From NCBI GenBank assembly GCA_937899905.1, contig CALCCF010000081.1, forward strand, positions 1 through 58,555: 58,555 nucleotides of DNA, read 5' to 3'. The translations under genes were made by a program, and so were the position numbers. The stretch is from an uncultured Phycisphaeraceae bacterium (GTDB lineage Bacteria; Planctomycetota; Phycisphaerae; Phycisphaerales; UBA1924). Shown one piece after another: positions 443-23,138 of this stretch. Position 1 is the first letter of the stretch; every line of letters begins with the position of its first letter. The notes under the pieces were generated by a model, which made no database searches, was not told the origin of the DNA, and was given only the letters and a program-made list of their open reading frames with translations.

Positions 443-451
443 AGAGCATTG

Positions 452-2019
<1,568 letters not shown>

Positions 2020-2023
<4 letters not shown>

Positions 2024-7502: not shown

Positions 7503-8023
7503 GCCGGCCCGTCCTGACCCTCGGGATTCTCTCGTGTGTATGTGCATTGCTCTTAGCGATCCAAGGACGCCGTATGGCCTCCGCCGATCAGAGCTTCCAA
7601 GCCGCCCACTCACGCCTGCTACAAACTCGATCGACGACGAACCAGCTGGAGTCGCTTCGAACACAGGACGAGTTGATATCGCTTGGTCAGCGCCCGCCGC
7701 AGGACGTTATCGCCCGTCTGCGTTCTACCATGTCGGAAGTCGGAGTCGATCCCCGTCGCCTTACGGGAGTGCAGGCGGATACGAGCACCGCAAGGCGTGT
7801 AGTGGTCGGTAGTCAGGCCGATCGGTTCCAAGTCCAGTCGGTGAGGGCGATCCTTGAAGGCGTGACACCCGTTGAAGTTGGTCGTTTGCTCGTGGCGTGG
7901 CGACAGTCGCAACGACTCTGGACGACGACGACGCTGACGCTCACACACCGCAGCGGTAACGAGAATCGCTATCGGGCCGAGCTCGGATTCTCCGCGGTAT
8001 ACCTTGATGAGGCCGTCCAATGA
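7499..8023 (+). CDS. Inner-membrane protein, GspM-like
   Basis: A 174-residue bitopic protein with a membrane helix at residues 5-22 (LTLGILSCVCALLLA), an alpha-helical coiled stretch after it and a C-terminal alpha/beta region (FQVQSVRAILEGVTPVEVGRLLVAW) like the ferredoxin fold of GspM/PilO. GspM partners GspL under the platform. The GTG start overlaps the GspL-like stop and the stop overlaps the lipoprotein start. Sequence similarity to GspM is weak, so the call is positional and topological. Confidence 0.6.
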   Translation: MSRPVLTLGILSCVCALLLAIQGRRMASADQSFQAAHSRLLQTRSTTNQLESLRTQDELISLGQRPPQDVIARLRSTMSEVGVDPRRLTGVQADTSTARRVVVGSQADRFQVQSVRAILEGVTPVEVGRLLVAWRQSQRLWTTTTLTLTHRSGNENRYRAELGFSAVYLDEAVQ

Positions 8024-8883: not shown

Positions 8884-11136
8884 TCATTGGTTCGTTCGCG
8901 CGTGGGCCAATGCGATCTGGCCGACACTGATCCCGCCATCGTTGCACGGCACATCACGGCTGATCCGCGCCTCCAGGTCCGGAGGCAAAGCGTCCAGAAA
9001 CAAACCGAGCAGACGAGCGTTTTGCCACACACCTCCGCTGAGCGCCAGCGTAGCCACCGAGGCGTCACGGGCATGATTCGTCGCGATGTCCGCCAGGTCT
9101 GCGGCGAATTCGGCGTGAAATCGCGAGGCGACGTGCGCTGGCGTTGCTCCTCGGAGGCGTTGTGCAATCGCTCGAGTGACGTATGCGGCGGCAGCAAGCG
9201 GCGCACTCGTGGGCGCACAGGATGAGGGCGATCCATGCTCGCGAGCCAGTTGCTCTAGCCAGATTGCGGCCTGGCCTTCGTATGTGGTGGGGCGAGTGAA
9301 TCCGCAGACAGCGGCGATCGCGTCGAACAGCCTGCCAGCCGATGTCGACTGGATGCACCGCGTTCCACGAGCGATCATTCTCCTTGCGAGCCGGAAGCGA
9401 TCAGGAAAGCAAAATGGCTCTGTTTCCATCACAGTTTCATTGCGTGCTCCGATATATGCCGCAGCTGCCTGGACCGGATGCTTCGCCGCTGCATCGCCTC
9501 CGGGCATCACAACCGGGGCCAGACCATTGACGCGTTCGAATCCCTTGGAGATCGATCCGACGAAGATCTCTCCGCCCCATATTGAGCCATCATGTCCATA
9601 GCCCGTGCCGTCGAGCGCAATCCCCACGACGGTGGTGTCCAGTGACTCGTATTCAAGCATTGTCGAAGCGATGTGGGCTTCGTGATGCTGAACTGCGATG
9701 CGATGCGCGCAGTCCAACTGCGCAGCTAGCCTGGTAGAAACAAACTGTGGGTGGAGGTCGTGGGCTATGACGAGTTGGCTCCTATCGACCTCGTACATTT
9801 CGAGTAAGTCGTCGATAGTCTCGCGAAATGCTCGATCGGTTTCTACATCGCCGAGGTCGCCGATGTGCTGGCTGAGGAGTACTTGCTCGTCGATCGCGAG
9901 TGCCACCGAGTTTTTCAGGTCGGCTCCAACAGCGAGGATTGGTCGGCGAGAGGGGATCGTGGCAACACTGCTCGGTGCGTAGCCACGTGCCCGCCGTATC
10001 ACGGTCGGTCGCCCGCTGCGAATGGCAACGACCGAGTCATCGACACGACGCTGGATCGGACGGTCCCCAACGAGCATGCCGTCGGCGATTCCGGCGAGCG
10101 ACTCTCGAGCGTGGTCGTCGCGGTACGCGATTGGCTCGCTCGATCGATTGGCGCTCGTAAGAACCAGCGGGCTCGGCGCTCCGGCAGCAAAGAGCAGATG
10201 GTGGAGAGGCGTGTAGGGGAGCATAAGCCCGACCTCGCTGACGCCCGGATGAACCCCAAGCAACTTCTGGCGGACCGGTGCGAGCACGATGGGTCGGGGT
10301 GTTGAAGTGAGGAGTTTCTTGTGTTGGGCGCTCAGGTCGGCCAGCGCCTCGGCTGCGGACAGATCGCGTACCATGATGGCAAAGGGCTTTTCTTTGCGGA
10401 ACTTGCGCTCTCGCAGCTCACCGATCACTCTTGCATTGCTCGCGTCGCACGCAAGGTGGTACCCACCTAGCCCCTTGATTGCAAGGATGGCTCCCTCAGC
10501 AAGCAACTGAGCGGCGGCCTCAACGGCTCGTGAACCCGTTGCGGTGACCTCACCTTTGAGTTCCAGTCGGTACTGCGGCCCACAAGCGGGGCAGGCTGTG
10601 GGTTGGGCATGGAATCTGCGGTCGAGCGGATCGTCGTACTCGCGTTGGCACTCGTCGCACATGGGCCAATCGGCCATGGTGGTTCGCGGTCGGTCATACG
10701 GAAGCGATCGGATGATCGAGTACCGCGGGCCGCAGTTCGTACAGTTCGTGTAGGCGTACCCGAAGCGCCGATCGTTCGGATCGGTGATCTCTCGCAGGCA
10801 GTCGTCACAGACGCAAAGGTCCGGGCTGAGGCGAGTGGTCGGCCGACCATCGGACGTGCTCTCTCGGATCTCAAACCCACGAAAGCCCTCGGGCACCTTC
10901 GACTCGATGTCCACGGCGTCGACCCTGGCGGCCGGCGGATGACGATCCTTCATGGAAGCCTCGAACGCACCGAGCGCGTCGGGGGCTCCCTCAACGTGCA
11001 CACGCACGCCATCGATGCCGTTGAGCACCCATCCGGCGAGGCCCAGTTCCCGGGCCGTCTGGTAGACGAACGGACGGAATCCGACACCTTGGACGATACC
11101 GGTGATCAACAGCCGCCTGGCCTCGACACCGGGCAT
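8884..11136 (-). CDS. hypF: Hydrogenase maturation carbamoyltransferase HypF
   Basis: Makes the cyanide ligands of the NiFe active site: hydrolyses carbamoyl phosphate and transfers the carbamoyl group, via an adenylate, to the HypE C-terminal Cys. The 750 residues show, in order, an acylphosphatase domain (GIVQGVGFRPFVYQTA), a double zinc-finger region (CVCDDC, CTNCGP, CDEC, CPACGP), a YrdC-like domain, and a C-terminal Kae1-like domain with VQHHEAH and GIALDGTGYGHDG. Start ATG at 11136 overlaps the hypE stop (ATGA); an upstream in-frame extension to 11253 lies inside hypE and precedes the acylphosphatase domain. Last gene of the hydrogenase operon. Confidence 0.96.
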   Translation of the reverse strand: MPGVEARRLLITGIVQGVGFRPFVYQTARELGLAGWVLNGIDGVRVHVEGAPDALGAFEASMKDRHPPAARVDAVDIESKVPEGFRGFEIRESTSDGRPTTRLSPDLCVCDDCLREITDPNDRRFGYAYTNCTNCGPRYSIIRSLPYDRPRTTMADWPMCDECQREYDDPLDRRFHAQPTACPACGPQYRLELKGEVTATGSRAVEAAAQLLAEGAILAIKGLGGYHLACDASNARVIGELRERKFRKEKPFAIMVRDLSAAEALADLSAQHKKLLTSTPRPIVLAPVRQKLLGVHPGVSEVGLMLPYTPLHHLLFAAGAPSPLVLTSANRSSEPIAYRDDHARESLAGIADGMLVGDRPIQRRVDDSVVAIRSGRPTVIRRARGYAPSSVATIPSRRPILAVGADLKNSVALAIDEQVLLSQHIGDLGDVETDRAFRETIDDLLEMYEVDRSQLVIAHDLHPQFVSTRLAAQLDCAHRIAVQHHEAHIASTMLEYESLDTTVVGIALDGTGYGHDGSIWGGEIFVGSISKGFERVNGLAPVVMPGGDAAAKHPVQAAAAYIGARNETVMETEPFCFPDRFRLARRMIARGTRCIQSTSAGRLFDAIAAVCGFTRPTTYEGQAAIWLEQLAREHGSPSSCAPTSAPLAAAAYVTRAIAQRLRGATPAHVASRFHAEFAADLADIATNHARDASVATLALSGGVWQNARLLGLFLDALPPDLEARISRDVPCNDGGISVGQIALAHARTNQ

Positions 11137-12161
11137 CAGCAGATCCGAGGCAGCGGATCTCCGACCAGCACGTCGATGACCCTCTTTCCGCCAAACTCCG
11201 TCTGGCCGATCACGCGACCGCGGTGCTCTTCGGTGATCGTTCCAATGCGGCACGCGGATTCGCCACCCGAGACTCCGCCGAGCGCGTCCAAAGCTTCATC
11301 TGCTCGGCTACCGTCGACGACCGCGATGAACTGCCCCTCATTGGCCACGTGCAGCGGATCGAGACCCAAGAGTTCGCACGCACCCCGGACCTCGTCCCGT
11401 AGCGGAACGGCAGCCTCTTCGACAATAACTCCGGCGCGAGACGACTCGGCCAGCTCGTTGAGCACGGTCGCCACGCCGCCGCGCGTTGCATCGCGCATCC
11501 AACGAATCGAGGACCCCAACGTATCGATCAGCGCACGGGTCAACGGCAAGACGCTCCTGGAATCCGACCCGAGATCAGACTCGATGTCGATCTCGTCTCG
11601 GGCGATCATGATCGCGATGCCGTGATCGCCAATCGGGCCGCTGACGAGGACCGCATCACCGGGCTGGACAAGTGCTGGATCGAGCCGGGCTTCTTCTCTC
11701 ACAAGTCCCACGCCGGCGGTATTGATGTACATCCCATCGGCGCGGCCGTTCTCCACGACCTTGGTGTCGCCGGCAATGACGGAAACTCCGGCTTCCCTCG
11801 CCGCGTCCGACATCGCACGGACCTGTTCGCGGAGCTGCTCGACCTCGAGTCCAGCCTCGAGCACGAAGCCCGCGGTCAGCCCGATCGGCTCGGCTCCGGA
11901 CACCGCGAGGTCGTTTACGGTACCGTGAACGGCTAGTGATCCGATGCTACCACCCGGAAACGTGTGCGGACTGACAACAAATGTGTCGGTTGTCATCGCG
12001 AGACGCAGCCCGCCGGCCGAGAGAATGGCCGCGTCACCCATCGCATCGAGAACATCGTTCGACAACGCAGCGGCGAAGAGCCCGTCAACGAGCCGGCGCG
12101 TTGCCTGCCCGCCAGAGCCGTGCTGCATCGAGATCTGTTCGTCGTTGAACTCGGCCGACAT
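11136..12161 (-). CDS. hypE: Hydrogenase maturation protein HypE
   Basis: ATP-dependent dehydratase that converts the HypF-derived thiocarboxamide on its C-terminal Cys into thiocyanate, the CN donor. The 341-residue protein begins with the AIR-synthase-like motif MQHGSGGQATRRLVDGLF and ends in LPRIC, the conserved family terminus whose Cys carries the ligand. ATG at 12161 lies 1 base after the hypD stop and was preferred over a TTG at 12179 within hypD. The stop overlaps the hypF start by 4 bases. Confidence 0.96.
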   Translation of the reverse strand: MSAEFNDEQISMQHGSGGQATRRLVDGLFAAALSNDVLDAMGDAAILSAGGLRLAMTTDTFVVSPHTFPGGSIGSLAVHGTVNDLAVSGAEPIGLTAGFVLEAGLEVEQLREQVRAMSDAAREAGVSVIAGDTKVVENGRADGMYINTAGVGLVREEARLDPALVQPGDAVLVSGPIGDHGIAIMIARDEIDIESDLGSDSRSVLPLTRALIDTLGSSIRWMRDATRGGVATVLNELAESSRAGVIVEEAAVPLRDEVRGACELLGLDPLHVANEGQFIAVVDGSRADEALDALGGVSGGESACRIGTITEEHRGRVIGQTEFGGKRVIDVLVGDPLPRIC

Positions 12162-12162
12162 G

Positions 12163-13278
12163 TTAGCCTGTGGTCCCAATCGTCACGTCGGCGTACTTGT
12201 ACTGGGCTGCGCATGCGCCCTCGCTGGAGACCATGAGCGCTCCGACGGGCTTTTCCGGCGTGCACCCTTTGCCAAAGAGCTTGCACTCGGTCGGTTTGAG
12301 CGCTCCCTTGAGCACCTCGCCGCACTGGGCTTCAATCGGATCGGGGAACGTCTGGCCGTGTACCCCGATCTGGCGCTCCGCATCGAATGCCGCAAACTCC
12401 TCGCGGATGGCAAGGGCAGACTTTGGGATGTCGCCCATGCCCCGCCACTCGAACGCGTCACGAGTTTCAAAGACCAGATCCATTGCGGCAATCGCCGAGG
12501 GATTGCCATTCCAAGACACGGCACGTGTGTATTGATTCTCGACCTCGGAGCGCCCCTCATTGAGTTGCCGCACGAGCATGGCGATCGATTGCAGGATATC
12601 GAGCGGCTCGAATCCAGACACCACAATCGGGCGATCGAATTCGTCTGCGATGAAGCGATACGGCTCACAACCAATGACCGTGGATACATGTCCTGGCCCA
12701 ATGAAGCCATCCAGCCTCATGTCGTCCATCTCGAGCAGGGCGCGGATGGCGGGATTCACCAGAATGTGGTTGCAGTACACGTAGAAGTTCGTTAGGCCAA
12801 GCTCGCGAGCACGCAAGAGTGTCACGGCGGTCGATGGCGTGGTCGTCTCAAAGCCGATCGCAAAGAACATGACGGGACGGTCCGGGTTCTCTTGCGCAAT
12901 CTTCAGTGCATCCAGGGGCGAATACACCATTCGGATATCCGCCCCGCGAGCTTTCGATTGTAAAGGACTGCCCTTGGAGCCCGGCACACGCATCATGTCG
13001 CCGAATGCCGTGAAGATCAGATCGTCGCGTTCGGCCATCGCGAGCCCAACGTCCATACGCCCCATTGGTAGGACGCACACGGGGCAACCCGGGCCATGGA
13101 TGAGTTCGATGTTCTCTGGGAGCAACTGCGACAACCCGAACCGGAAGATCGTGTGCGTGTGTCCGCCGCAGACCTCCATGATCCGGTATGTCTCACCGGG
13201 ATCGACCGATCGGTGGATCTCTTCAGCGACTGCTTTGATGCGCGCAGCGTCTCGGAACTCGTCAACATATCGCATCAC
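12163..13278 (-). CDS. hypD: Hydrogenase maturation protein HypD
   Basis: Fe-S scaffold on which the Fe(CN)2CO unit is assembled with HypC. The 371 residues contain the HypD signatures MEVCGGHTHTIFRFG, HGPGCPVCVLP and, near the C terminus, the Cys positions of the [4Fe-4S] cluster (CGEVLKG, CKLFGKGCTP). GTG at 13278 overlaps the previous stop as GTGA; an ATG at 13275 (TGATG) is an equally plausible start that removes one residue. It sits between the two HypC-type genes and hypE. Confidence 0.96.
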   Translation of the reverse strand: MMRYVDEFRDAARIKAVAEEIHRSVDPGETYRIMEVCGGHTHTIFRFGLSQLLPENIELIHGPGCPVCVLPMGRMDVGLAMAERDDLIFTAFGDMMRVPGSKGSPLQSKARGADIRMVYSPLDALKIAQENPDRPVMFFAIGFETTTPSTAVTLLRARELGLTNFYVYCNHILVNPAIRALLEMDDMRLDGFIGPGHVSTVIGCEPYRFIADEFDRPIVVSGFEPLDILQSIAMLVRQLNEGRSEVENQYTRAVSWNGNPSAIAAMDLVFETRDAFEWRGMGDIPKSALAIREEFAAFDAERQIGVHGQTFPDPIEAQCGEVLKGALKPTECKLFGKGCTPEKPVGALMVSSEGACAAQYKYADVTIGTTG

Positions 13279-13496
13279 CGCACCCCCATGGCCGGTGCGA
13301 TCGCCACGCCCTGGTGAACCAGCACACGATCACCGACTCGAATACCCGGAATCAGGTCGACGGCCACGGTGGAGCGCGAGCCATCCTCAAACTCCACGCT
13401 CGCGTCCGCTCCGTCGAGCGCGACGATGCGAACGGCATCGGCCCGATCGGAACACGTGGCGCAAGAGTGCTCGTCAGAAGTGCATCGCCCGTTCAT
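13275..13496 (-). CDS. Small HypC/HupF-like protein with Cys-rich N terminus
   Basis: A 73-residue protein related to HypC in its C-terminal half (VDLIPGIRVGDRVLVHQGVAIA), but without the MCLAIPG start of true HypC. The N terminus instead has Cys residues at about 5, 12 and 15 (CSDEHSCATCSD). Similar short HypC relatives occur beside canonical HypC in some actinobacterial-type hydrogenase operons. It could be a second chaperone, for example for the large subunit, with canonical HypC serving HypD, or a metal or redox protein. It overlaps hypC and hypD by 4 bases each. Confidence 0.8.
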   Translation of the reverse strand: MNGRCTSDEHSCATCSDRADAVRIVALDGADASVEFEDGSRSTVAVDLIPGIRVGDRVLVHQGVAIAPAMGVR

Positions 13497-13780
13497 GTGG
13501 ATTGCTCCTGGGTCGCTCCGAATGCGTATCCCTCGGCCTCCTCGCGAGCCTCGTCGTCCTCGCCGAGCAATTCAAGGAGTTTCATCTGTTCTTCGGCCTG
13601 CTCCGCACTGATCTTGCTCATCGCGAAGCCCACGTGGATCAGCACCCAGTCACCCTCCACAGGCGGCTCCTGGCGTAGCAGATCGATGTTGACCCTGCGG
13701 CGAACACCCATGACGTTCACGGTCGCAAGTCGCTCAGCGTCGTCGATGGCACTGATCTGACCGGGAATCGCTAAGCACAT
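13493..13780 (-). CDS. hypC: Hydrogenase chaperone HypC
   Basis: A 95-residue HypC/HybG protein: MCLAIPGQI at the start (the Cys2 thiol binds the Fe(CN)2CO precursor after Met removal), then VNVMGVRRRVNIDLL and VEGDWVLIHVGFAMSKI. HypC works with HypD and carries the precursor to the large subunit. ATG at 13780 has GGAG about 9 bases upstream and gives the invariant MC start; an in-frame ATG at 13801 would add seven residues before it and overlap the NHL gene. The acidic tail after residue 75 is slightly longer than usual. Confidence 0.95.
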   Translation of the reverse strand: MCLAIPGQISAIDDAERLATVNVMGVRRRVNIDLLRQEPPVEGDWVLIHVGFAMSKISAEQAEEQMKLLELLGEDDEAREEAEGYAFGATQEQST

Positions 13781-13793
13781 ACCAATACTCCGT

Positions 13794-14936
13794 TCATTCA
13801 CCGACCGCCTCTTGGGTCGTCCGCCAGATCATCACGCGGTTGTTTCCCGAGTCGGCGATCGCGAGACGGTCTCCATGGAGATGCAGCCCATAGGGCCAGC
13901 AGAGCGTGTCCCGTTCGACCGCCTGCCAGCGATTCTCGCCGTTGGCTTCGAAGTCGGGTTGGGCCACGACGCCTTGAGCATCGGGGGCCGCCCCATCTCT
14001 TGGAATCGGATCGTGCACCAGGATGCGATTGTTTGCAGTATCAGAAATCACCATGCGGCCACGATCGATCGACAGGCAGTACGGGAATCGATGCGTGTGC
14101 GCCGACTGTGGTCCGTACGGCCACTCGACCGCGGATTCGAAGTCGGGCTGGCCCATCACCAGATCTGGTTTGGCACCCTCACACGCGGCGTCGGCGTTTT
14201 GCCATCCGAGTACACGGTGGTTTCCGGCGTCGGCGATGTATAGCGACTCGTTGTGTCCGGCGATGGCATGCGGCCAGCGGAACGTCGTTGGGCCGACTGG
14301 CCCGTCGCGATTCTCGCCGCGTGACTCCCAATCGTCCTGGCCGATGAGCCACTCGGGCGGCTCGTTGTCCCACGGCACATCGGGCCAACCGAGCACGCGT
14401 CGGTTACCGGTATCGGCCACGAAGAATCGGCGATCAACCCGGCCGAACGCGTACGGCCAATAAAGGCCATTGCGTCGGGCGTTGCTTTCGCCAAGATTCG
14501 GTTCGACGCCATCGAGATCGCTCTGGCCGATGACTCGATCCGGTGGCGTGCCGTGTTCGCCGGGGACCCGGTCCCACACGAGCAGCCGATGATGCCAGGC
14601 ATCGGCTACGACCAGTTTGCCATCGATGACCATGACGCCCGTCGGAAGGTGCAAGAGTTCAGGACCCTCATCGGCGAATGTTCGTTGGCCTAGCACCACG
14701 TCAGCGGGCGTGCGGTCATCTTCTGGCACCCCATTCCAGATGAGGACCCGATGATTGCCCGAGTCGCTGACGACAAGGACATCATCATCGAACCACACAC
14801 CCCTAGGAGCATACAGCGTGTCCGACGCTGGAATCGCGCTGGGCAGCGCAAGGCCTCCAGGCGCAGGCGCGCCGAGCCACACCGCGGGTGCGTATCCGAT
14901 GCTGTGCGCAGAACCCGACTCGGCCACAATGCTCAT
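13794..14936 (-). CDS. NHL-repeat beta-propeller protein of the hydrogenase operon
   Basis: A 380-residue protein built from NHL-type repeats with recurrent VVSDSGNHRVLIWN, VADTGNRRVLGW, IADAGNHRVLGW, ISDTANNRILVHD and IADSGNNRVMIW, each followed by an 'xGQxDF' type segment (MGQPDFESA, IGQSDLDG). Such repeats fold as a beta-propeller used for protein-protein contacts. There is no signal peptide, so it is probably cytoplasmic. It starts in an ATGA overlap with the NifU-Rieske gene and ends 13 bases before hypC. It may be a structural or assembly partner of the hydrogenase; no catalytic residue can be assigned. Confidence 0.85.
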   Translation of the reverse strand: MSIVAESGSAHSIGYAPAVWLGAPAPGGLALPSAIPASDTLYAPRGVWFDDDVLVVSDSGNHRVLIWNGVPEDDRTPADVVLGQRTFADEGPELLHLPTGVMVIDGKLVVADAWHHRLLVWDRVPGEHGTPPDRVIGQSDLDGVEPNLGESNARRNGLYWPYAFGRVDRRFFVADTGNRRVLGWPDVPWDNEPPEWLIGQDDWESRGENRDGPVGPTTFRWPHAIAGHNESLYIADAGNHRVLGWQNADAACEGAKPDLVMGQPDFESAVEWPYGPQSAHTHRFPYCLSIDRGRMVISDTANNRILVHDPIPRDGAAPDAQGVVAQPDFEANGENRWQAVERDTLCWPYGLHLHGDRLAIADSGNNRVMIWRTTQEAVGE

Positions 14937-15832
14937 GTGCCGTCACCAGTCGGTCGGACCCAGACGATGCCGTGCTCAACCCGAAGCGGGAAGGGCTCGA
15001 GCTGGACCTGCGGTTCATTCAGGCACTCACCGCTGGTCACATCGAACACCATGCCATGCCATGGGCAGGTGAGCGTGTCTTCCTGGCATTCGCCATCGTG
15101 CAGGCTCAGCCCCTGGTGTGGGCAGGCGTTTCGATAAGCGAACAGTCGGCCGTCCCGACGAACCACGATCGCATCGCACCCATCGCCCTGAACGCGCACG
15201 CACTTACCTTCGTCGATGCTCTCGGCAACCGGCCCCTCGATCCAGCCGTGTGTCTCGGACAACGAGCCGGACGCACCGATGGTCACCTGCACGACACCGG
15301 CAACCGGCTCGGTCGCGACCTCTTCGACACGCTCGATCTCGGGCACCGACTGTCGGATGACCTCTTCGACACCATCCTTGAGCGTCGCGGCGGACATGCT
15401 GCACCCGGCGCACGCGCCGTGCATTCGGACATACACCACACCATCTTCGACGCGGACGAGTTCGATCTGGCCGCCATGCCCCGAGACGTAGGGCTTGATG
15501 CGCTCCATGGCCCGAGCCACGCGAGTGGTTACGTCGGGCCGGACGATCCCGAGCTCCATCAGCACGGCGTAGACCAACGGATCGTCCACGGCCTCGAAGA
15601 GTACCTCTCTCGCGCGCTCGTCGGCCTTGAATCGGCGGACCAACTCCCGCACGCCCGCGGCCAGGAACGAGTCGCGGGCTTTCAGGAGGGCATCGGCGCG
15701 TTTGCGGATGTCCTCGTCCAGAGGTGCCATCTGCTCTCGGGCACGATCGACGGCCGCTGCCAGCGTTTCCGGACTATCGCCGGGCTCGTGCTTCCCGTTG
15801 GTGTTGGCTGGCGAGGATGACATTGCGGTCAT
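14933..15832 (-). CDS. NifU-like / Rieske Fe-S fusion protein, candidate hydrogenase electron relay
   Basis: A 299-residue protein: an alpha-helical N terminus (~30-105), a NifU C-terminal-like domain with CAGCSMSAATL (CxxC, Fe-S binding) at about 140-150, and a Rieske domain with CPHQGLSLHDG and CPWHGMVFD supplying the Cys/His pairs of a [2Fe-2S] centre. Group 1h operons in actinobacteria encode similar proteins, proposed to pass electrons from the hydrogenase to the respiratory chain. No membrane segment is present. ATG at 15832 overlaps the previous stop by 4 bases; ATG at 15823 is possible. It could instead serve in Fe-S delivery during maturation. Confidence 0.88.
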   Translation of the reverse strand: MTAMSSSPANTNGKHEPGDSPETLAAAVDRAREQMAPLDEDIRKRADALLKARDSFLAAGVRELVRRFKADERAREVLFEAVDDPLVYAVLMELGIVRPDVTTRVARAMERIKPYVSGHGGQIELVRVEDGVVYVRMHGACAGCSMSAATLKDGVEEVIRQSVPEIERVEEVATEPVAGVVQVTIGASGSLSETHGWIEGPVAESIDEGKCVRVQGDGCDAIVVRRDGRLFAYRNACPHQGLSLHDGECQEDTLTCPWHGMVFDVTSGECLNEPQVQLEPFPLRVEHGIVWVRPTGDGT

Positions 15833-16200
15833 GCCGGGGCTCCTTCGGACACGCTGGCACGCTCCAGCGATTCCTCGGCTTTCAGGCGAACGAGATCGGT
15901 GAACACGGCGACGCTCGCCGCACGCAGCGACTCGCCGACAGCCCCACCATCTACAGATGGCATCGGGCGACGCTCAAAGGCCTCAAGGATGGCGCACGCG
16001 CCGGCCGTGCTCGCCAAGGAGTGCTCTCGGAGGAACATGTCTACAAAGCGATCGAGCCAGACACCCTCGGCGTTGGGATCATCGCGCAGAACCCTCAGCG
16101 CGTTCGTCGGACCGTCGCAGCGGTGCATGGCCGTCTCGCAGAGGAGGTCGCAGGCTTCGTGAACAAGACTGTCCATGTGCAACCGAACATGATCATCCAT
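15829..16200 (-). CDS. Conserved-context protein of unknown function (123 aa), hydrogenase operon
   Basis: I do not recognise a domain. The protein is acidic and mostly predicted helical, with Cys residues in CDLLCETAMHRC (residues ~17-28) and one later in ACAILEAF. No signal peptide or membrane helix is visible. ATG at 16200 overlaps the TPR gene by 8 bases; a longer upstream reading to 16374 is antisense-like Arg/Ser-rich sequence inside the TPR gene and was rejected. Its stop overlaps the NifU-Rieske start (ATGA), so the two are likely made together and may work together. Confidence 0.75.
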   Translation of the reverse strand: MDDHVRLHMDSLVHEACDLLCETAMHRCDGPTNALRVLRDDPNAEGVWLDRFVDMFLREHSLASTAGACAILEAFERRPMPSVDGGAVGESLRAASVAVFTDLVRLKAEESLERASVSEGAPA

Positions 16201-17386
16201 GGCTCGCCTCCCCAACCGATGCGGGGCATGCCAGCATCTCGGCCTCGATCGCATCGATGCCCGCGAGCCCAGCGGCATCGCGAGACTGCTCGAAGATCGA
16301 CTTCGCCTCCACGAGCATCGGCCGCACCTCGTCATACCGCCCGAGGTGCGCCAGGGCGTTGGCCTTGCTGGCAAGCGTGCGGGCCCTCGCCGGAGTGGCT
16401 TCAGACCGTCGCTCCAGCACCTGACCGTACAACTCGATCGACTCCAACATGTTCTGCCCTGGGTGGGCGCTGGGGAGATGCTGGAGCGCGTTTGCGAGAT
16501 TCAGCGTGGCGCTCTCCCACAACTCGGGATGCTCGTCCGCCGTCACGATCTCGAGCGCTTCACGCAACGACTGAACGGCGATCGCACCGCGCAGCTTGCC
16601 GGCGTGCGCGTTCATCGGCATGGAGAGATACGCCACGGCGATGTTCATGTGGCACACCGCGAAGGACACGGGCTGGGTCCGCCTGGGCAGCGCCTGTGTC
16701 GCCTTCTGCAGCAGTTGGATGGCCTGCTGGAGCAATGCGGGGCGCTCGGCACCCATGGACAACATGCCATCCGCCGCCGCCATGAGGAGTTCGCCGCGAA
16801 GTGACTCGAAGCCGAAGCCCTCGAGCCATCCAGCCGCCCGGTGGAGCTCGTGGAGCGACCGATGATCGAGTTCGGCTACGGCCGCGGCCTCGCCCACATA
16901 TCGAGCGGCCGCGCACGGGCTGATAGAGGCAACAGCCTCTGCCGCGGCGCGCAAGCCATCGACTGCTTCGGCCCCCAGTCCTCGACTGGCCTGAGCGTGC
17001 GCGAGCGTGGCAATCGCATACGCCCGAACCCGCGGATCGATGGATGCGTCCGTCGTCGCGAGTTCCACATCTCCCCCCATCCGGTACACCACAGAGGCCG
17101 CATGGGCACGAACGTCGGGATCCGGATCGGAGATCGCATCGCCCATCGCGCGATTGTCGCCAGCCAAAAGGGCGATGTTGAACGCACCGCGCACGCGTAC
17201 GTCCCGACCGAGCCAGGCATCTCGCACGAAGCCCCACGCCTCGGGCAACGCATCCCACTCGCCGGACGCCAGGGCTGCTGCGGCCGTGGCGGCGGCACTC
17301 GGCAAGAGCGCAGCGCCCATGGACCCCGGTAGCATGCCGATGGCCGCAAATTGCGTGTCGAATGTGCTCAGGCGTGCGTCATCCAT
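16193..17386 (-). CDS. TPR/HEAT-like repeat protein of the hydrogenase operon
   Basis: A 397-residue all-helical, Ala-rich protein. Residues ~40-150 look HEAT-like (DVRVRGAFNIALLAGDNRAM, DPDVRAHAASVVYRMGG, DPRVRAYAIATLAHAQ); residues ~215-390 look like tetratricopeptide repeats (SFAVCHMNIAVAYLSMPM, ESATLNLANALQHLP, ARTLASKANALAHLGRYDEV). It lacks an export signal. TPR proteins also occur in actinobacterial-type hydrogenase operons, where their role is not settled. It is presumably a scaffold or chaperone for subunits; the molecular partner is unknown. It starts 4 bases after the 66-residue gene. Confidence 0.82.
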   Translation of the reverse strand: MDDARLSTFDTQFAAIGMLPGSMGAALLPSAAATAAAALASGEWDALPEAWGFVRDAWLGRDVRVRGAFNIALLAGDNRAMGDAISDPDPDVRAHAASVVYRMGGDVELATTDASIDPRVRAYAIATLAHAQASRGLGAEAVDGLRAAAEAVASISPCAAARYVGEAAAVAELDHRSLHELHRAAGWLEGFGFESLRGELLMAAADGMLSMGAERPALLQQAIQLLQKATQALPRRTQPVSFAVCHMNIAVAYLSMPMNAHAGKLRGAIAVQSLREALEIVTADEHPELWESATLNLANALQHLPSAHPGQNMLESIELYGQVLERRSEATPARARTLASKANALAHLGRYDEVRPMLVEAKSIFEQSRDAAGLAGIDAIEAEMLACPASVGEASHG

Positions 17387-17390
17387 CGTC

Positions 17391-17591
17391 TTACAACCCC
17401 GTTGGTGTCGAGATCTGCCGCCGTGCGGCCCATGCGATCCATCGGGCGGCTATCCGGGCCTTGTGCTCGGACGGATATGAGTCAATCCGCTTGCGTTCGA
17501 TGCCATCCACGAACCAGACCTCCAGGTACACCGTCCACGCCCCATTCTCAAGGAGCACCTCGCACTGAGCGAGAATGGGATCCTCGCTCAC
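17391..17591 (-). CDS. Small protein of unknown function (66 aa), hydrogenase operon
   Basis: A short soluble protein with LLENGAWTVYLEVWFVDG followed by a basic helix (HKARIAARWIAWAARR). It looks like a beta-sheet plus amphipathic helix; no Cys pair and no known domain. GTG at 17591 overlaps the upstream stop by 4 bases (GTGA) and fits operon style; a longer upstream reading to 17687 lies within the neighbour and is low-complexity Arg/Gly. Genes this short between structural and accessory hydrogenase genes may encode small subunits or assembly factors. Confidence 0.7.
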   Translation of the reverse strand: MSEDPILAQCEVLLENGAWTVYLEVWFVDGIERKRIDSYPSEHKARIAARWIAWAARRQISTPTGL

Positions 17592-17902
17592 GCGAAGGAT
17601 CCCACAACACCGTCCTCCACACACAACGGCACACAAAGCGTTCGAGACCTCGCGTCCCACTCTGCCTCGCGCACGCCCGCGTTCCACTGAAGATCGCGGA
17701 TCTGCGCGACGACGAGGACGGCGCGGTCACCCGCCGCGCTCGTTCGATTCAGGATCAGCCCGCCAACCGCATTCCCCGGCAGCATCGTCAGGCTGACCGA
17801 CGACTCGTCGGCACGCACCAACACGCCCTCGGCCGCACCGATCTCGTCGGCGCAGCGCGCATCAATCCTGACCGAACCGCGTTCGGTTAGTTCGACGCGC
17901 AT
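17588..17902 (-). CDS. Protein of unknown function (104 aa), hydrogenase operon
   Basis: A soluble 104-residue protein beginning MRVELTERGSVRIDARCADE, mostly predicted beta strands (VLVRADESSVSLTMLPG, RAVLVVAQIRDL), with two Cys near the C terminus (CVPLCVED). No domain recognised. ATG at 17902 overlaps the protease gene by 16 bases; longer in-frame upstream sequence reads as a shadow of the protease. Its place directly after the maturation protease suggests a maturation or stability function, which is only inferred. Confidence 0.72.
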   Translation of the reverse strand: MRVELTERGSVRIDARCADEIGAAEGVLVRADESSVSLTMLPGNAVGGLILNRTSAAGDRAVLVVAQIRDLQWNAGVREAEWDARSRTLCVPLCVEDGVVGSFA

Positions 17903-18405
17903 TGCGGTGCCCCCTGAGCCGACGGGGCTCCCGATCCGAATCGGCCGAGCAGGAGATCGACCAACTCGTCCATCGCCCGTTCGACGGGCTCGGAAAGCGT
18001 CATCCCCGGCGCCGTCGTCTCGGCTTCGATCAGGAAGACCGTGATGTCCTGGGGATACTCGTCCTTGAGCAGCCACTTGGCGAACGGGATGGCGTGATCC
18101 CATCGGAAACTATGCAGGTTGCCCGCCGCTTCGAGCGGGGCGCTAGCAGCCTCGTCTCCGGGCAACTCGAAGATGGCCCCGGGCTCCGAGCCCGACGTGC
18201 ACGCGTCAACGAACACGATCTTCGGGACGCCACGCATACGGAACGCCACATCCATGCCCGAGGTGCCGGCGTCGGCGACCCCCACACCCTCGGGCAGCCC
18301 CCGATCGAGCAGCCGGCGGATGAATACCGGCCCAACGCCGTCATCGGATCGCAGCAGATTGCCGCAACCGATGACCAGCACATCCTCGCGTTCGTCCCTG
18401 ATCAT
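17887..18405 (-). CDS. [NiFe]-hydrogenase maturation protease (HyaD/HupD/HybD family)
   Basis: Nickel-dependent endopeptidase that removes the C-terminal extension of the large subunit after metal insertion. The 172 residues show the family start VLVIGCGNLLRSDDGVGP (acidic nickel ligand in the DDG segment), then DAGTSGMDVAF and VFVDACTSG, and a His-containing segment HSFRWDHAIPF. ATG at 18405 begins 17 bases after the large-subunit stop; longer upstream reading lies inside the large-subunit gene. The large subunit here has a 19-residue tail after its last ligand His, consistent with a need for this enzyme. Confidence 0.9.
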   Translation of the reverse strand: MIRDEREDVLVIGCGNLLRSDDGVGPVFIRRLLDRGLPEGVGVADAGTSGMDVAFRMRGVPKIVFVDACTSGSEPGAIFELPGDEAASAPLEAAGNLHSFRWDHAIPFAKWLLKDEYPQDITVFLIEAETTAPGMTLSEPVERAMDELVDLLLGRFGSGAPSAQGAPQCASN

Positions 18406-18421
18406 GCCCAAGGCCTCAGAG

Positions 18422-20029
18422 TTAGCAACCGCCGCCCACGCGGAAACGTGCGAGCTCACGGTTGGACTTGGCGTCGTACGCGTGCACGGTGCACACCAAG
18501 CACGAGTCGTACGACCGCACGACATGGCCGAGCTCCACCGGATCATCCGGGTTCTCGATCGGCGCTCCGCACAAGGCTTGTTCCATCGGACCCATCGTGC
18601 CCGTGGCATCCCGCGGCCCGATGTTCCACGCCGTCGGCGTGACCACTTGGTAGTTCTCGATCTTGCCGTCCTTGATCTTGATCCAGTCCTGCAGCGCACC
18701 ACGGCTGGCCTCGGTCGCGCCCCAGCCACGACCTTCGGCGTGCTCGGTGGGCTTTACGTAGAACTTCTCGTGCAGGTCGATGTCGGACAGCCACTGGCGG
18801 ATCCGCGCGACGTACTTCGGACCCTCATGCATGCGCGAGAGCACGCGCGTCATGACACTCGGGCCGAGCTTCTGATGCACATCGAGGAAGAACGGATCGT
18901 TGTCCTGGTGATCACCGCCGCCGGGCTTCGCGCACATAAGCTGTCGGGCATACGTGCCCACTTCCATCGGCTGCATCTTGCCGTCAAGCATGTACCGCGG
19001 CGCCTTGGCCCAGGTGTACTTGCCCTCGCGAGCACCCTGCGCCGGATCGAGCGGATCGGTCACGCCATCGAAGGGGTGCAGAGCATCCGATCCACGGAAG
19101 AAGCTGTAGGTATGATCCTCACGCACGTTCGCCTGGTCATAGTCGTGGAAATTCTGACCGTCGAAGATGCCACCCTTGCTGATGACCGAGTCCTGACGGG
19201 AATCGATATCCGGATGGACGTAGTGGCCCTTGTCGATGTACGCGCCAGGCGTCATGAACATGCCGGGGCCAGTACCATACTTGTCGAGCCCCACGTCCTG
19301 GCAATAGCGGATGAAGAACGCCAGGTCGGAATTGTGCTGGCTCTCGTTTTCGTCCATCCAGGCGAGCATGTCGTCCCAGGACTTGATCTCCATGTACCGA
19401 TCGATGGAGCAGCCGAGCCAGTACTTTTCGAGCCACTCGTCCTTCCAGTACTCGAGGATGGCCCGCGAACGCGTTACGTCGGCAAGCGTCGGAGCGCACA
19501 TCACGCCACCGGGCACCATGAAGCTCGAGTGCGGCCACTGGCCGCCAAAGATCGCATAGATCTCCACCGGCTTGTTGGACAACGTGACGCCCGGCTCGTA
19601 GTACGTGCCGACAAACGGGGCCCAACGGCGTACCGCCTCGTCGTACAACTTGCTCTTGGCATACTTCTGGTTGACGAGATCGATGCCGAAGAGGGCATAG
19701 AACCAGCGCGGGATCGACTGGATGGTCTCGGCCGCCTGCGCGATCGAACGGATCAGGTGCGCGTTCGGCGGCACCTCGGTCTTCCACGCGACGTCGAGCG
19801 CATAGCTCGCCTTGGTCAGGTGGCTGCCGCCGCAGATGCCGCAGATGCGCGGCGTGACGATCAAACCAGCCTGCGGATCCTTGCCCTTCAGGATGATTTC
19901 GAAGCCGCGGAACATGGTTCCTTCGGTCCAGGCTTCGGTGACCACGCCATCGTCGATCTTGCATTTGACGTCGAGTTCGCCCTCGACGCGGCCCATTGAT
20001 TCGGCCTTGAGTTCCATGGTGACGCCCAT
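18422..20029 (-). CDS. hhyL: [NiFe]-hydrogenase large subunit, group 1h-like
   Basis: Catalytic subunit holding the NiFe(CN)2CO centre. The 535 residues carry the L1 motif RICGICGGSH (Cys63, Cys66) and the L2 motif DSCLVCTVH (Cys510, Cys513, His516), which together supply the four Cys ligands. In L2, Ser replaces the Pro of the common DPCxxC form. A 19-residue extension ending GGGC follows His516 and is probably clipped off. There is no export signal. The start at 20029 has AAAGGAA upstream. The sequence resembles the actinobacterial-type (former group 5) enzymes that oxidise atmospheric H2; group assignment is from recalled family features. Confidence 0.95.
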   Translation of the reverse strand: MGVTMELKAESMGRVEGELDVKCKIDDGVVTEAWTEGTMFRGFEIILKGKDPQAGLIVTPRICGICGGSHLTKASYALDVAWKTEVPPNAHLIRSIAQAAETIQSIPRWFYALFGIDLVNQKYAKSKLYDEAVRRWAPFVGTYYEPGVTLSNKPVEIYAIFGGQWPHSSFMVPGGVMCAPTLADVTRSRAILEYWKDEWLEKYWLGCSIDRYMEIKSWDDMLAWMDENESQHNSDLAFFIRYCQDVGLDKYGTGPGMFMTPGAYIDKGHYVHPDIDSRQDSVISKGGIFDGQNFHDYDQANVREDHTYSFFRGSDALHPFDGVTDPLDPAQGAREGKYTWAKAPRYMLDGKMQPMEVGTYARQLMCAKPGGGDHQDNDPFFLDVHQKLGPSVMTRVLSRMHEGPKYVARIRQWLSDIDLHEKFYVKPTEHAEGRGWGATEASRGALQDWIKIKDGKIENYQVVTPTAWNIGPRDATGTMGPMEQALCGAPIENPDDPVELGHVVRSYDSCLVCTVHAYDAKSNRELARFRVGGGC

Positions 20030-20086
20030 CGCGTGTTCCTTTCTTTGCGTACCTGTTGAGAGAGAAGGGGTGTGCGGGGGCGTCCC

Positions 20087-21058
20087 TTACACCACGAACA
20101 TGTCTTCTTTGGCCCACTCCGGCGCGGCGGCGCGTGCCGCCGCGGCGTGGAGCGTGTAACTCAGCGGATCGGTGCCCTCGGGCACGTCACGCGGTACGAC
20201 GCCCAGGACCTTCTGCGTCTTGAACACGGTGCCGGGAGCGAGGTCGTAGAACGGCCAGTTTGGTTCGGTGCAGCCGTGGCACGGTTGGCCCGAACGGGTC
20301 TTGCTTGACTGGCGATTCCACAGAATGCGGTTGCAGCTCGAATGCGTGAACGAGCCGCGGCAACCCTTCTCGTAGAACAGGCAGCCCGTGCGCGTGCCCT
20401 GGCCGAACTCCTCGACCGACTGCTTCCACTCGAAGTACTGGTTACGGGTGCAACCGGTCTGCGTGAAGCTCTTGAAGAACGTCTGCGGTCGCTGGTAATC
20501 GTCCAAGGCGATGTCGCCAACCCGACCCGTGGCAAGCGCGACGAGGATCTGGCTGATCCAGTCCGGGTGAGCCGGGCAACCGGGGATGTTGATCACCGGG
20601 AGGCCACTTCGAGCCACGAACGACTCGCCAAGGAACCCGCCTCGTTTGCCCTTGCGGAACTGCAGGCCTTCAGAATCGGACGGATTCGGAGCGGTCGATG
20701 GCACGCCGCCAAAGCTCGCGCACTCGCCTACGCCGACCGTGACAAACGACTTGGGTGCAAGGTCGGCGACCCAGTCCTTGAATGGCCGCCCCAGGAACAT
20801 GTCATACCGACCCGTACCGTTGGGACCGTTGATGATGGTGCCCTCGACGACCAGCACATCGAGCTCTCGCTCACCGCTGATGATCGAGTTCAGCAGCGCC
20901 TTGGCCTGTTCGCCCATGTCGGTGACGAGCGCGTGGTGGTACAGCACCTCGATACCGAAGTCGGTGACCAGATCGATCACCGTGGGTTCCTCGGCATTCA
21001 GGAAGGATTGGGTGTTGCCATTGCACGCCCCGCCGTGGAGCCAAACCACTGTTGCCAT
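20087..21058 (-). CDS. hhyS: [NiFe]-hydrogenase small subunit, group 1h-like
   Basis: Electron-transfer subunit with three Fe-S clusters. The 323-residue protein begins with WLHGGACNGNTQSFLNAEEP. Most small subunits have CxxC here; this one has only Cys12, and in the structurally known Cupriavidus necator enzyme of this group an Asp replaces the missing Cys at the proximal cluster. Other ligand Cys are in GECASFGG, IPGCPAHPDW, TGCLFYEKGCRG, SSCNRIL and PCHGCTEP. No Tat signal is present, as is usual for this group. ATG at 21058 has AAAGGA upstream; the longer in-frame reading to 21298 precedes the conserved start. First gene of the operon. Confidence 0.95.
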   Translation of the reverse strand: MATVVWLHGGACNGNTQSFLNAEEPTVIDLVTDFGIEVLYHHALVTDMGEQAKALLNSIISGERELDVLVVEGTIINGPNGTGRYDMFLGRPFKDWVADLAPKSFVTVGVGECASFGGVPSTAPNPSDSEGLQFRKGKRGGFLGESFVARSGLPVINIPGCPAHPDWISQILVALATGRVGDIALDDYQRPQTFFKSFTQTGCTRNQYFEWKQSVEEFGQGTRTGCLFYEKGCRGSFTHSSCNRILWNRQSSKTRSGQPCHGCTEPNWPFYDLAPGTVFKTQKVLGVVPRDVPEGTDPLSYTLHAAAARAAAPEWAKEDMFVV

Positions 21059-21249
21059 TTGAGCGGTCCTTTCCAGCCGAGCCTCTGCCCGACTTGTCGG
21101 CCTCGAACCTCGATTGACAAATCGACGTCCGATTTCGTCTTTTGCCGAGTATACTGGGACCCAGGGCGCATTTACCCATATCTCTATGCTTAAATGTAAT
21201 TGACACCGAGTCTCAGTTGAGTCCTCAATTGCACTAGGGAGCAACCCGA
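21059..21249. promoter_or_regulatory. Divergent promoter region between hydrogenase operon and DUF1641-hypAB
   Basis: This 191-bp gap separates two divergent units and is AT-richer than its surroundings, especially 21111-21230. TTGACA occurs on the + strand at 21114-21119 and 21200-21205, and TATACT at 21150-21155, but no pair has standard 16-18 bp spacing, so no exact promoter is assigned. GGGAG at about 21237-21241 is the likely ribosome site of the + gene. Shared control of structural and maturation genes is expected. Confidence 0.55.
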
Positions 21250-22056
21250 ATGATCTCGAATGGCGAGCACCAGAACGCGGTCGATCGCTTGAACACATTG
21301 CTTGACGATCCCGAGACGATGGGCGGCCTAGAGCAGTTCCTTACGAGACTTCCCGAACTCAATGCGACGGTTGAGTTGCTCTCCGGCTTCCTCGCGAACT
21401 CGTCTCGGCTAGCGGAGAACGCCAACGGCATCATCTCGACGGCGCGAAAGGCCGCCGGCGATATTGATGCTGTCGAACAGGGCGAACGTCTGCGCGGCGC
21501 GGTCGAGCGCGGTACACGCATCGCTGAGACGCTGGGTGAACCGCTGAGCGATCCGGAAACGCTCGAGAGCATGAAGTCGCTCGTGGACATGCTGCCCAAG
21601 CTTGTTGCCTTCGCCCAGATCCTCGAGCAATTCCTTGAGAGCTCCAGCCGGTTTGCTGAAAACGTGAACACCATCGTCGCGACGGCGCGCAAGGCCGCCG
21701 CCGACAAGTGGCCGGACCTGCTCGACCGCCAAGGGCTGCTCGACCTGCCGCAGCAGGTGCACGAATTGATCAACTCTCCCTCGCTCCGGCGACTGCTCGA
21801 CAGTCGCGTGCTCTCGGACGGCGCTCTGCACGTCATGGATCAGGTCGCCGCGGCGACCGTGGAGGCTCACGCCACATCCGTCGAGAACGATGCGCGACTG
21901 TCACGTATCGGCGCTTTCAAGTCACTGGGCGACCCCGACGTGCAGCGTGGCCTCGCGTTCACCGTGGCGCTCGCTCGCTCTCTTGGCGTCCATATGCGCG
22001 AGCAGACGGAAGCAACACCGGGCGCAACGCGCGATCTGGAGCCCGACCGTGCATGA
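21250..22056 (+). CDS. DUF1641-containing protein in hydrogenase locus
   Basis: A 268-residue soluble, helical, acidic protein. It contains two related helical repeats (LLDDPETMGGLEQFLTRLP and PLSDPETLESMKSLVDMLP; then SRLAENANGIISTARKAAG and SRFAENVNTIVATARKAAA), suggesting internal duplication with a spacing of about 88 residues. The C-terminal GAFKSLGDPDVQRGLAFTVA resembles DUF1641, a domain found beside hydrogenase and formate dehydrogenase genes. No metal motif is visible. It overlaps hypA by 8 bases, tying it to maturation or assembly of the enzyme. Confidence 0.8.
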   Translation: MISNGEHQNAVDRLNTLLDDPETMGGLEQFLTRLPELNATVELLSGFLANSSRLAENANGIISTARKAAGDIDAVEQGERLRGAVERGTRIAETLGEPLSDPETLESMKSLVDMLPKLVAFAQILEQFLESSSRFAENVNTIVATARKAAADKWPDLLDRQGLLDLPQQVHELINSPSLRRLLDSRVLSDGALHVMDQVAAATVEAHATSVENDARLSRIGAFKSLGDPDVQRGLAFTVALARSLGVHMREQTEATPGATRDLEPDRA

Positions 22057-22462
22057 GTTGTCGATCGCTACTGCATTGGTCTCGGGGGTGACGGACGCGC
22101 TGAGCCAGGCCGGTGAGCATCGCCCCGTGATCGCCGTGACAGCCTTGATCGGCGATCTCTCGGGCGTTGTACCAGATGCTCTCCTCTTTGCGTGGCCCAT
22201 CGCAGCCGAGGGCTCGCGTTGCGAGGGCGCACAGCTCCGCATCAACAGCAGCCCCGGCCGCGTGTGGTGCGAGGGCTGCCAGGTCGAGACCCGGCTCACC
22301 CAGCCACCGCGATTCCGCTGCGGCACGTGCAACACGCCCACGCCGCACGTGCGCGGTGGGCGAGAGATGGAACTCGTTTCGGTTGAGCTCGCAGACGAAG
22401 AAACTGAACCCACCGACAGCCCCCACAACGAGGAAGCCCGCCATGCAACCACGCATCCTTGA
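22049..22462 (+). CDS. hypA: Hydrogenase nickel insertion protein HypA
   Basis: Nickel metallochaperone that works with HypB. The 137 residues start MHELSIATALV (His2 is the nickel ligand), and the zinc site is C74xxC77 (CEGC) and C91xxC94 (CGTC). The C-terminal tail after about residue 105 is longer and more acidic than usual. The GTG start at 22049 is required to give the invariant MHE start and overlaps the DUF1641 gene by 8 bases; it overlaps hypB by 20 bases. Confidence 0.94.
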   Translation: MHELSIATALVSGVTDALSQAGEHRPVIAVTALIGDLSGVVPDALLFAWPIAAEGSRCEGAQLRINSSPGRVWCEGCQVETRLTQPPRFRCGTCNTPTPHVRGGREMELVSVELADEETEPTDSPHNEEARHATTHP

Positions 22463-23138
22463 GGTTCGCACGAAAATCTTGAAGAAGAACGACGAGATCG
22501 CCCGAGCCCTGCGCGGCCGCTTCTCCGATCTCGGTGTCTACGTCATTAATGTGGTATCGAGCCCGGGTGCTGGTAAGACAGAGCTCCTGACGCAGGTCAT
22601 GCGCACGCTTCGCGAGCGTGGGCTCTCGGTTGCCGCGGTCGTTGGAGACCTCGCAACCGAGAATGATGCCGACCGCATGGGCGAAAGCGGCTGTCCGACC
22701 AAGCAGATTCTCACCGGGACCATGTGCCATCTTGAGGCCGACATGGTCGAATCCGCGGTCGAGGACTTCGATTTGGCCAACACAGACGTGCTCTTCGTTG
22801 AGAACGTGGGCAATCTCGTGTGCCCACAAGGCTTCGACCTGGGAGAAGACCTTCGCGTGCTGTTCTTCCCGAGCACCGAGGGCGAAGACAAGCCCCTCAA
22901 GTATCCCACCCTCATCAATACGTGTGACCTGGTCGTACTGAGCAAGATGGATCTCGCGGATGCCGTGGCGTTCGATACCGCCCTTGCCCGCCGCAACTGC
23001 GATGAGGCACGTCCTGGTGTCCCGATCATCGAAACGTCGGCTAAGTCGCGTAGCGGGGTCGATAAACTCGCGGATGCGATCAGCCATCGTGTGACTACGA
23101 AGCAGTCTGTTGCGAGCGGGCGCGCGGTCGGCGCTTGA
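22443..23138 (+). CDS. hypB: Hydrogenase nickel incorporation GTPase HypB
   Basis: GTPase that delivers nickel to the large subunit together with HypA. The 231 residues carry the P loop SSPGAGKT (39-46), the switch region VGDLATENDADR, the metal-binding Cys in ENVGNLVCPQ and the guanine motif SKMD. There is no N-terminal His-rich or CxxCGC nickel store, so it is the short form. ATG at 22443 lies within the end of hypA; earlier in-frame sequence belongs to hypA in another frame. The 80-bp gap after it (23139-23218) separates it from the convergent kinase gene and holds only a weak 5-bp hairpin. Confidence 0.95.
   Translation: MQPRILEVRTKILKKNDEIARALRGRFSDLGVYVINVVSSPGAGKTELLTQVMRTLRERGLSVAAVVGDLATENDADRMGESGCPTKQILTGTMCHLEADMVESAVEDFDLANTDVLFVENVGNLVCPQGFDLGEDLRVLFFPSTEGEDKPLKYPTLINTCDLVVLSKMDLADAVAFDTALARRNCDEARPGVPIIETSAKSRSGVDKLADAISHRVTTKQSVASGRAVGA

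Follow-up and report, generated by a model that had tools for sequence, protein, structure and literature searches.

What kind of hydrogenase is encoded in the window, the 58,555-nucleotide contig of an uncultured Phycisphaeraceae bacterium (C81) that was analysed here at its full length, and what might it do for its host? The contig belongs to a 3.63-Mb genome assembled in 113 contigs (95% complete, 0.3% contamination). Positions 8884-23138 carry a divergent cluster in which profile searches identify hydrogenase small and large subunits (hucS and hucL), a maturation protease, the Hyp factors HypA-F and an Fe-S protein. The family E-values run from 1.4e-222 (HypF, TIGR00143) to 1.6e-24 (HypA, PF01155), far past chance, and the hydrogenase locus is both real and complete. 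We are confident that it is a complete locus for a group 2a, Huc-type high-affinity [NiFe]-hydrogenase, probably acquired horizontally, which would pass electrons from H2 to menaquinone and on to the respiratory chain.

Judged by sequence, the structural genes are of the group 2a Huc class. Over residues 6-516, HucL (18422-20029, minus strand; PF00374) aligns with Mycobacterium smegmatis Huc (PDB 7uus_A and 7utd_A) at 813 bits, against 205 bits for the runner-up in the PDB, and HucS (20087-21058, minus strand) aligns with its Huc counterpart (7utd_B) at 517 bits. A tree of 69 large subunits, made by a quick method from 100 collected rows after 31 near-duplicates had been dropped, places HucL in a Huc clade of 56 rows with an approximate likelihood-ratio (SH-aLRT) support of 100. 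Among the reference sequences, we take HoxG, HoxC and HoxH of pHG1 to represent groups 1d, 2b and 3d; HofG of Cupriavidus necator is presumably 1h, a label drawn in part from the title of a 'group 5' paper, the Kitasatospora and Streptantibioticus sequences are labelled by their clustering with it, and other labels also depend partly on clustering. The tree program warned of long branches (L005 and L006) that meet just outside the Huc clade, which leaves the 1h question unaffected; these are the large subunits of two genomes of the same phylum (G019 and G051), 45% and 42% identical to HucL. Both window subunits clear the Pfam cut-offs, and the NCBIfam hydrogenase models match under their curated cut-offs, as is expected of subunits that belong to another subgroup. 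Huc itself is assigned to group 2a in PMC10017518, although its PDB chains are named 'Hydrogenase-2'. The closest relatives of HucL are those of L080 (86% identity) and L081, a metagenome-assembled genome (MAG) of the Phycisphaerae (73%), and both joins are firm. An Eremiobacterota row and the Bacillota clade come next, with weak support (SH-aLRT 88; bootstrap 80 and SH-aLRT 15 in a second tree). L082 and L115, two other planctomycete loci, and G344, of the same phylum, sit elsewhere.

The residues expected of such an enzyme are largely in place. HucS has 323 residues, as in mycobacteria, and no signal peptide was seen in it; a longer open reading frame (to 21298) reaches too far, since it aligns with HucS from its residue 82 onwards, and the start at 21058 is therefore correct. 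It contains exactly nine cysteines (12, 113, 161, 203, 226, 233, 242, 260 and 263), all of them common to two mycobacterial sequences, and its first motif has N15. Three clusters of the [3Fe-4S] type are reported for Huc, and nine cysteines, three to each predicted cluster, fit that arrangement. The menaquinone contacts described in PMC10017518, K212, Y229 and Y301, are retained at identical numbering. In HucL, both Ni-ligand CxxC pairs are intact (C63GIC and C510LVC), and a predicted 19-residue tail past CTVH is the expected substrate of the protease.

These features suggest the following route. HypA-F and the protease HucD would build the NiFe site in HucL, after which HucSL would oxidise H2 in the cytoplasm and pass the electrons along three Fe-S clusters, each held by three cysteines, to menaquinone bound at K212, Y229 and Y301 of HucS. 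A HucM homologue would join the HucSL lobes and bring menaquinone from the membrane through its stalk, and the reduced quinone would be re-oxidised by a host respiratory chain ending in haem-copper oxidases. HucE, an NHL-repeat protein, a tetratricopeptide repeat (TPR)-like protein and three small proteins would be accessory. HucE (14933-15832, minus strand; PF01106 and PF00355) joins a NifU domain with the motif CAGC to a Rieske domain (CxH-x16-CxxH; the second half of this motif is printed as CxxC in PMC6883350, where the window protein has CxxH). It is reported to be required in cells (PMC6883350).

What the host might gain can be approached by analogy. Since M. smegmatis Huc scavenges trace H2 (PMC10017518), the idea in the earlier note of a self-contained hydrogenase able to use trace H2 stands. 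The role in starvation that the earlier note attached to it is weakened, since expression and activity of group 2a enzymes in three species were highest during growth, that of M. smegmatis peaking at the transition from growth to persistence (PMC7784904). The best reading is thus one of trace-H2 uptake into menaquinone by an enzyme of the usually growth-linked 2a type, with its activity, affinity and growth-linked use predicted from sequence and from Huc. The host has two matches to haem-copper oxidase COX1 and two to the futalosine pathway of menaquinone synthesis (PF02621). RuBisCO, the MoCoBD_2 domain (the one family with which carbon monoxide dehydrogenase was tested), [FeFe] hydrogenase, a second [NiFe] large subunit and full-length NifH were not found in its genome. 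With oxidase and menaquinone genes present and no RuBisCO, MoCoBD_2, full NifH or [FeFe] enzyme, trace H2 would merely supplement the energy supply of a host that lives as an aerobic heterotroph.

Several observations weigh against this account as a whole. Cysteines 59 and 115 of mycobacterial HucS are missing from the window protein, and purified M. smegmatis Huc is reported to reduce menaquinone analogues without HucE (PMC10017518). At 62.8%, the G+C content of the window is slightly under the mean of 25 pieces taken from other contigs of the genome as background (66.0%, SD 2.9). Two of three short matches to the NifH profile (positions 3-46 of 271) clear the Pfam cut-off, and in a genome of 113 contigs that is 95% complete, the gene absences could be gaps.

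The alternative that survives best, improbable as we judge it, is that the enzyme mainly recycles H2 of internal origin, from nitrogenase or fermentation, as its counterparts do in diazotrophic cyanobacteria, and does not chiefly take up H2 from outside. In Cyanobacteria, such recycling is what group 2a classically does (PMC7784904). The NifH matches, however, cover only those short stretches, two of the three passing the cut-off as is expected of P-loop relatives, and neither an [FeFe] hydrogenase nor a second [NiFe] enzyme was found in the 95%-complete genome.

A little less probable again is a binning error, by which contig and locus would come from another organism. It could draw on the slightly low G+C content, on the closest homologue (86%) lying in a MAG labelled Longimicrobiales, and on the distribution of hucL, which at E<=1e-30 was found in none of 80 relatives, six of them of the same genus. 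At the same threshold, 24 of 392 genomes of the phylum, including the host, match HucL; of these, the host and G344 (65%) alone reach Huc level, followed by matches of 45% and 42%. Against a foreign contig, the main genes of the flanking type VI secretion system (T6SS) are collinear with those of the same-genus G095, at identities of about 48-96%: the block at 28.8-58.5 kb of the window corresponds to 892-921 kb there, with a sheath protein 94% identical. The type II secretion system (T2SS)-like block is collinear in the same-genus G393; in G095, it lies at 948-956 kb in a different relative orientation. In tetranucleotide profile, the window lies inside the range spanned by the background pieces, and the G+C content of the locus equals that of its flanks. 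As G095 shares the T6SS block and is without hucL, the contig is in keeping with the genus, and an acquired island is the best reading of the locus; the absence of hucL from 80 relatives likewise suggests that the lineage probably gained it horizontally. The nearest homologous locus (L080:1-11541), labelled Longimicrobiales (Gemmatimonadota), encodes a HucL 86% and a HucS 95% identical to those of the window; it is possibly misbinned, and its sample name (PL25a) is also that of the planctomycete locus L082.

The class proposed in the earlier note, a group 1h (Hhy-type) hydrogenase serving starvation survival, can be practically dismissed: such enzymes likewise occur in Actinomycetota, have no cytochrome b as partner in M. 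smegmatis (PMC6883350) and are accompanied by a gene of the NifU family in the hof locus of pHG1, but HucL scores just 149.6 bits with HofG and HucS 100 bits with HofK, and the three 1h references group apart in a long-branched clade of their own, so that both subunits lie outside 1h by bit score and the large one also by the tree. The gene content agrees with this, a Rieske-bearing HucE, a DUF1641/HucM protein and the NHL and TPR genes being of Huc type, where the hof and Kitasatospora loci have DUF5947 and DUF6084 genes instead. What remains of that proposal is the likeness to an actinobacterial high-affinity class, which holds for Huc, another such class. A possible Fe-S relay had also been suspected, and an Fe-S protein is indeed present, of HucE rather than HhyE type: it has one CxxC (CAGC) and a Rieske motif in place of the two C-terminal CxxC motifs and lack of a Rieske domain that mark HhyE.

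The component that departs from the solved structure is HucM. In M. smegmatis, it has 188 residues, of which 20-79 form a tetrameric scaffold and the remainder a tube to the membrane, four HucM holding eight HucSL (PMC10017518; PMC10792529). When compared with this single head and stalk, the window protein (21250-22056, plus strand; PF07849; 268 residues) proves to be a homologue with two heads instead of one. A segment of about 55 residues occurs twice, as head A (residues 14-68, 21289-21453) and head B (residues 95-149, 21532-21696), with 26 of 55 positions identical, and is followed by a stalk region with the DUF1641 motif (21697-22053). Searched alone, the protein matches 7uus_Q at E=0.0021 from residue 97 onwards, and therefore head B is the part matched; residues 1-77, which hold head A, find HucM at E=0.24-0.33, under unrelated aminopeptidases. 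With single-sequence support for head A so weak, the case is carried by a head profile and by a profile of 22 tandem forms. The latter matches M. smegmatis HucM at E=2.7e-24, aligning head A with the head of HucM (profile positions 14-128, HucM 20-135) and stalk with stalk (210-281, HucM 115-187), and matches the 60-residue chain 7utd_Q at E=1.3e-14. It also matches a designed helical bundle (E=2.5e-5), far more weakly than HucM, so its E-values are somewhat optimistic within a helical family; those of the head profile are flattering, since it was refined with heads that it had found. An independent check, self-alignment against 20 shuffles per protein, was passed by 29 of 30 proteins of at least 255 residues, which beat all of their own shuffles; the one that failed (L139) has one head. 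An AlphaFold model of the monomer (mean predicted local distance difference test score 74.7, predicted template-modelling score 0.39) gave no Foldseek match in the PDB at E<=0.001 and neither supports nor contradicts two heads, a reading that is based on sequence.

How widespread such forms are was assessed in 87 sources (the best 80 matches to the window HucL, six others and the window), which do not amount to a census. HucM was recovered from 75 of them; of the remaining twelve (L025, L026, L027, L085, L107, L119, L123, L126, L138, L142, L146 and L148), several sit on contigs that are short or truncated. After filtering for coverage, 46 proteins have one head, 27 two and two three; unfiltered, the counts are 46, 26 and 3, and L147 has a partial third head. 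A single head is found in all 35 Actinomycetota and all seven Bacillota. Two heads occur in 16 of 17 Chloroflexota (the exception, L145, begins at base 8 of its contig), in all three Gemmatimonadota (one of them L080, whose label is doubtful), in all three Planctomycetota, beside which stand the window and the same-phylum L028, and in the one Vulcanimicrobiota. The isolate Chloroflexus islandicus (L103) is among the two-headed cases. Among the Acidobacteriota, two Bryobacteraceae loci with the same coordinates have three heads and a third locus has two; one Bryobacter protein (L155:4364-5467) carries its three repeats in 367 residues. The rows without a phylum have one head (L023, L024 and L117) or two (L095). 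The median number of residues past the last head hardly varies, at 111, 119 and 114 for one, two and three heads.

Mapped on the HucL tree (48 rows with a state, after L145 and 26 near-duplicate, mostly mycobacterial, rows were dropped), head number as one versus more needs just two changes, a pattern that fits two losses. In a tree of the heads themselves, built on 59 columns and with ten starred branches among 73 inner ones, the A and B heads of the window clade fall together (SH-aLRT 91), and so do the A and B heads of the Gemmatimonadaceae pair (83). A single ancient duplication is not shown by this tree, with which separate duplications or homogenisation are equally compatible.

With two heads where the solved structure has one, the oligomer may differ in shape. 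Two chains may replace four, four chains may carry two tiers, or the extra head may be a spacer. Three heads would fit a ring of four badly and the stalk is not shorter where heads are more numerous, an argument that leans towards tiers. We tentatively put forward, as an idea that may well prove wrong, that HucM is a modular scaffold whose head repeats, one to three in each chain above a stalk that hardly varies in length, set the number of hydrogenase lobes. On that view, two heads on a four-chain stalk would mean 16 HucSL in two tiers, about 1.6 MDa, where a two-chain stalk would keep the usual eight HucSL (about 0.8 MDa). The masses calculated from the window proteins are about 803 kDa for eight HucSL with two HucM, 861 kDa for eight with four and 1606 kDa for 16 with four. 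The single head of the only Huc structures that we found would then be a reduced form, at which Actinomycetota and Bacillota arrived separately.

In transcription order, the minus strand carries hucS, hucL, hucD, orfY, orfS, the TPR-like gene, orfX, hucE, the NHL gene, hypC, hypD, hypE and hypF, and the plus-strand arm hucM, hypA and hypB. The protease HucD (17887-18405) is of the HycI family (TIGR00072, 123.9 bits against a cut-off of 47.45; PF01750). It is followed by the conserved proteins OrfY (17588-17902, 104 residues) and OrfS (17391-17591, 66 residues), the TPR/HEAT-like protein (16193-17386; a weak TPR match under the cut-off, E=0.0012, with homologues in Huc loci) and OrfX (15829-16200, 123 residues). 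Counted among 81 sources with the window included, orfY is present in 66, orfS in 55 and orfX in 32, and none of the three has a significant Pfam match. Beyond hucE come the NHL-repeat protein (13794-14936; PF01436), which also has homologues in Huc loci, HypC (13493-13780; PF01455, 88.1 bits), HypD (12163-13278; TIGR00075, 496.3 bits), HypE (11136-12161; TIGR02124, 403.9 bits) and the carbamoyltransferase HypF (8884-11136; 740.9 bits against a cut-off of 466.1), with a likely ATG at 11136. On the plus strand, hypA (22049-22462; 86.6 bits) starts with GTG and is followed by hypB (22443-23138; TIGR00073, 232 bits). The start codons of hypB, hypC and hypE were inspected. The divergent hucS/hucM intergenic region (21059-21249), checked for a promoter in an alignment of three loci, showed little conservation. 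The inventory in the earlier note is thus borne out for the protease and all six Hyp factors, and its coordinates for both subunits hold, the hucS start included; hucM, the NHL and TPR genes and the small conserved genes had not been singled out.

The locus lies between blocks of T2SS-like and T6SS genes. At 95-8622 is the T2SS-like block (GspE, GspF and partners, and a TPR protein), which is collinear in several same-genus genomes and present in two copies in G095. A WD40 serine/threonine kinase (23219-26806) adjoins an extracytoplasmic function (ECF) sigma factor (PF07638), the pair spanning 23219-27386. The kinase has a relative beside huc in L082, but such kinases are numerous, with five matches at 1e-60 in G000, 21 in G445 and 33 in G446. 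Many of its relatives are found in the genomes behind L081 and L082, and this, together with the HucL of L081, suggests kinship to the Phycisphaerae; the 'planctomycete-like' genome of the earlier note fits. With same-genus copies reaching 60% identity, we see no special link between the kinase/ECF pair and huc. The T6SS-like block (28820-58496) comprises ClpV, TssG, two TssF on opposite strands, a VipB sheath, baseplate/VgrG-like, DUF2169 and pentapeptide-repeat proteins, ImpA and a 2947-residue open reading frame with DUF5649 repeats.

The earlier note presented trace-H2 use as little studied in the phylum, yet genome surveys already report group 2a in one Planctomycetota genome (PMC7784904) and uptake hydrogenases in Planctomycetota MAGs (PMC10305171). 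Trace-H2 use by a member of the Phycisphaerae was not found among the matches listed for the open-licence literature, as far as the available text goes. This is a well-formed Huc locus of an ordinary class, with a two-headed scaffold. That form, which recurs in several phyla, was not found described: the available text of four open-licence Huc papers (PMC10017518, PMC13098282, PMC11018855 and PMC10792529) makes no mention of a duplicated head, duplication in PMC10017518 being named for image particles only and 'repeat' nowhere, and an open-licence search for HucM, tandem and hydrogenase returned the CASP15 paper alone. Huc is among the few enzyme groups known for the uptake of atmospheric H2, and the solved architecture that we found comes from one organism. 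If most Huc outside Actinomycetota and Bacillota is two-headed, that architecture is not general, and head number would offer a handle on complex size and on the route of menaquinone to the enzyme. With this locus, a lineage of likely aerobic heterotrophs also joins the candidate users of trace H2, by acquisition and not by descent.

M. smegmatis Huc (PDB 7utd, 7uur and 7uus; PMC10017518) is the closest well-known system: HucL and HucS align almost end to end, HucS without a gap, the quinone residues and a HucM homologue are common to both, and related mycobacterial loci share the HucE, NHL, TPR and protease genes. It differs in its one-headed HucM of 188 residues, against two heads and 268 residues here, and in the position of hucM, which lies directly upstream of hucS in M. 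smegmatis and is divergent, followed by hypA-hypB, in the window. A plasmid locus of Sulfobacillus acidophilus has closely similar order and orientation, DUF1641-hypA-hypB being divergent from hucS-hucL-protease-hyp-TPR-NifU-NHL-hypC, with additional hypC-like and glutaredoxin genes and one gene in place of orfY and orfS. DUF1641, hypA and hypB also occur in the Parageobacillus Huc locus (PMC12976888). Bacillota, a possible but weakly supported sister group by HucL, have a single-headed HucM. The Huc loci of Chloroflexota, Gemmatimonadota, Acidobacteriota and other Planctomycetota are of the same operon kind with the hyp genes ordered differently, their HucM having two heads (three in Bryobacteraceae) and their HucL being 63-73% identical (L080, 86%). 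When the window proteins except HypA were compared with 85 loci, the hucE, NHL, TPR and hyp neighbours mostly recurred, among the matches listed; the placement of hypA elsewhere was taken only from annotated records. More distant are the group 2e Hys enzymes of Sulfolobales, which combine a hydrogenase about 45% identical to Huc, by description, with a HucM-like HysM (PMC11018855). Finally, the DUF1641 quinone-coupling proteins ForE of formate dehydrogenase (PMC8808070) and YjlC of NDH-2 (PDB 9snk and 9pxk) match the C-terminal part of the HucM profile, with partner enzymes that differ from hydrogenase.

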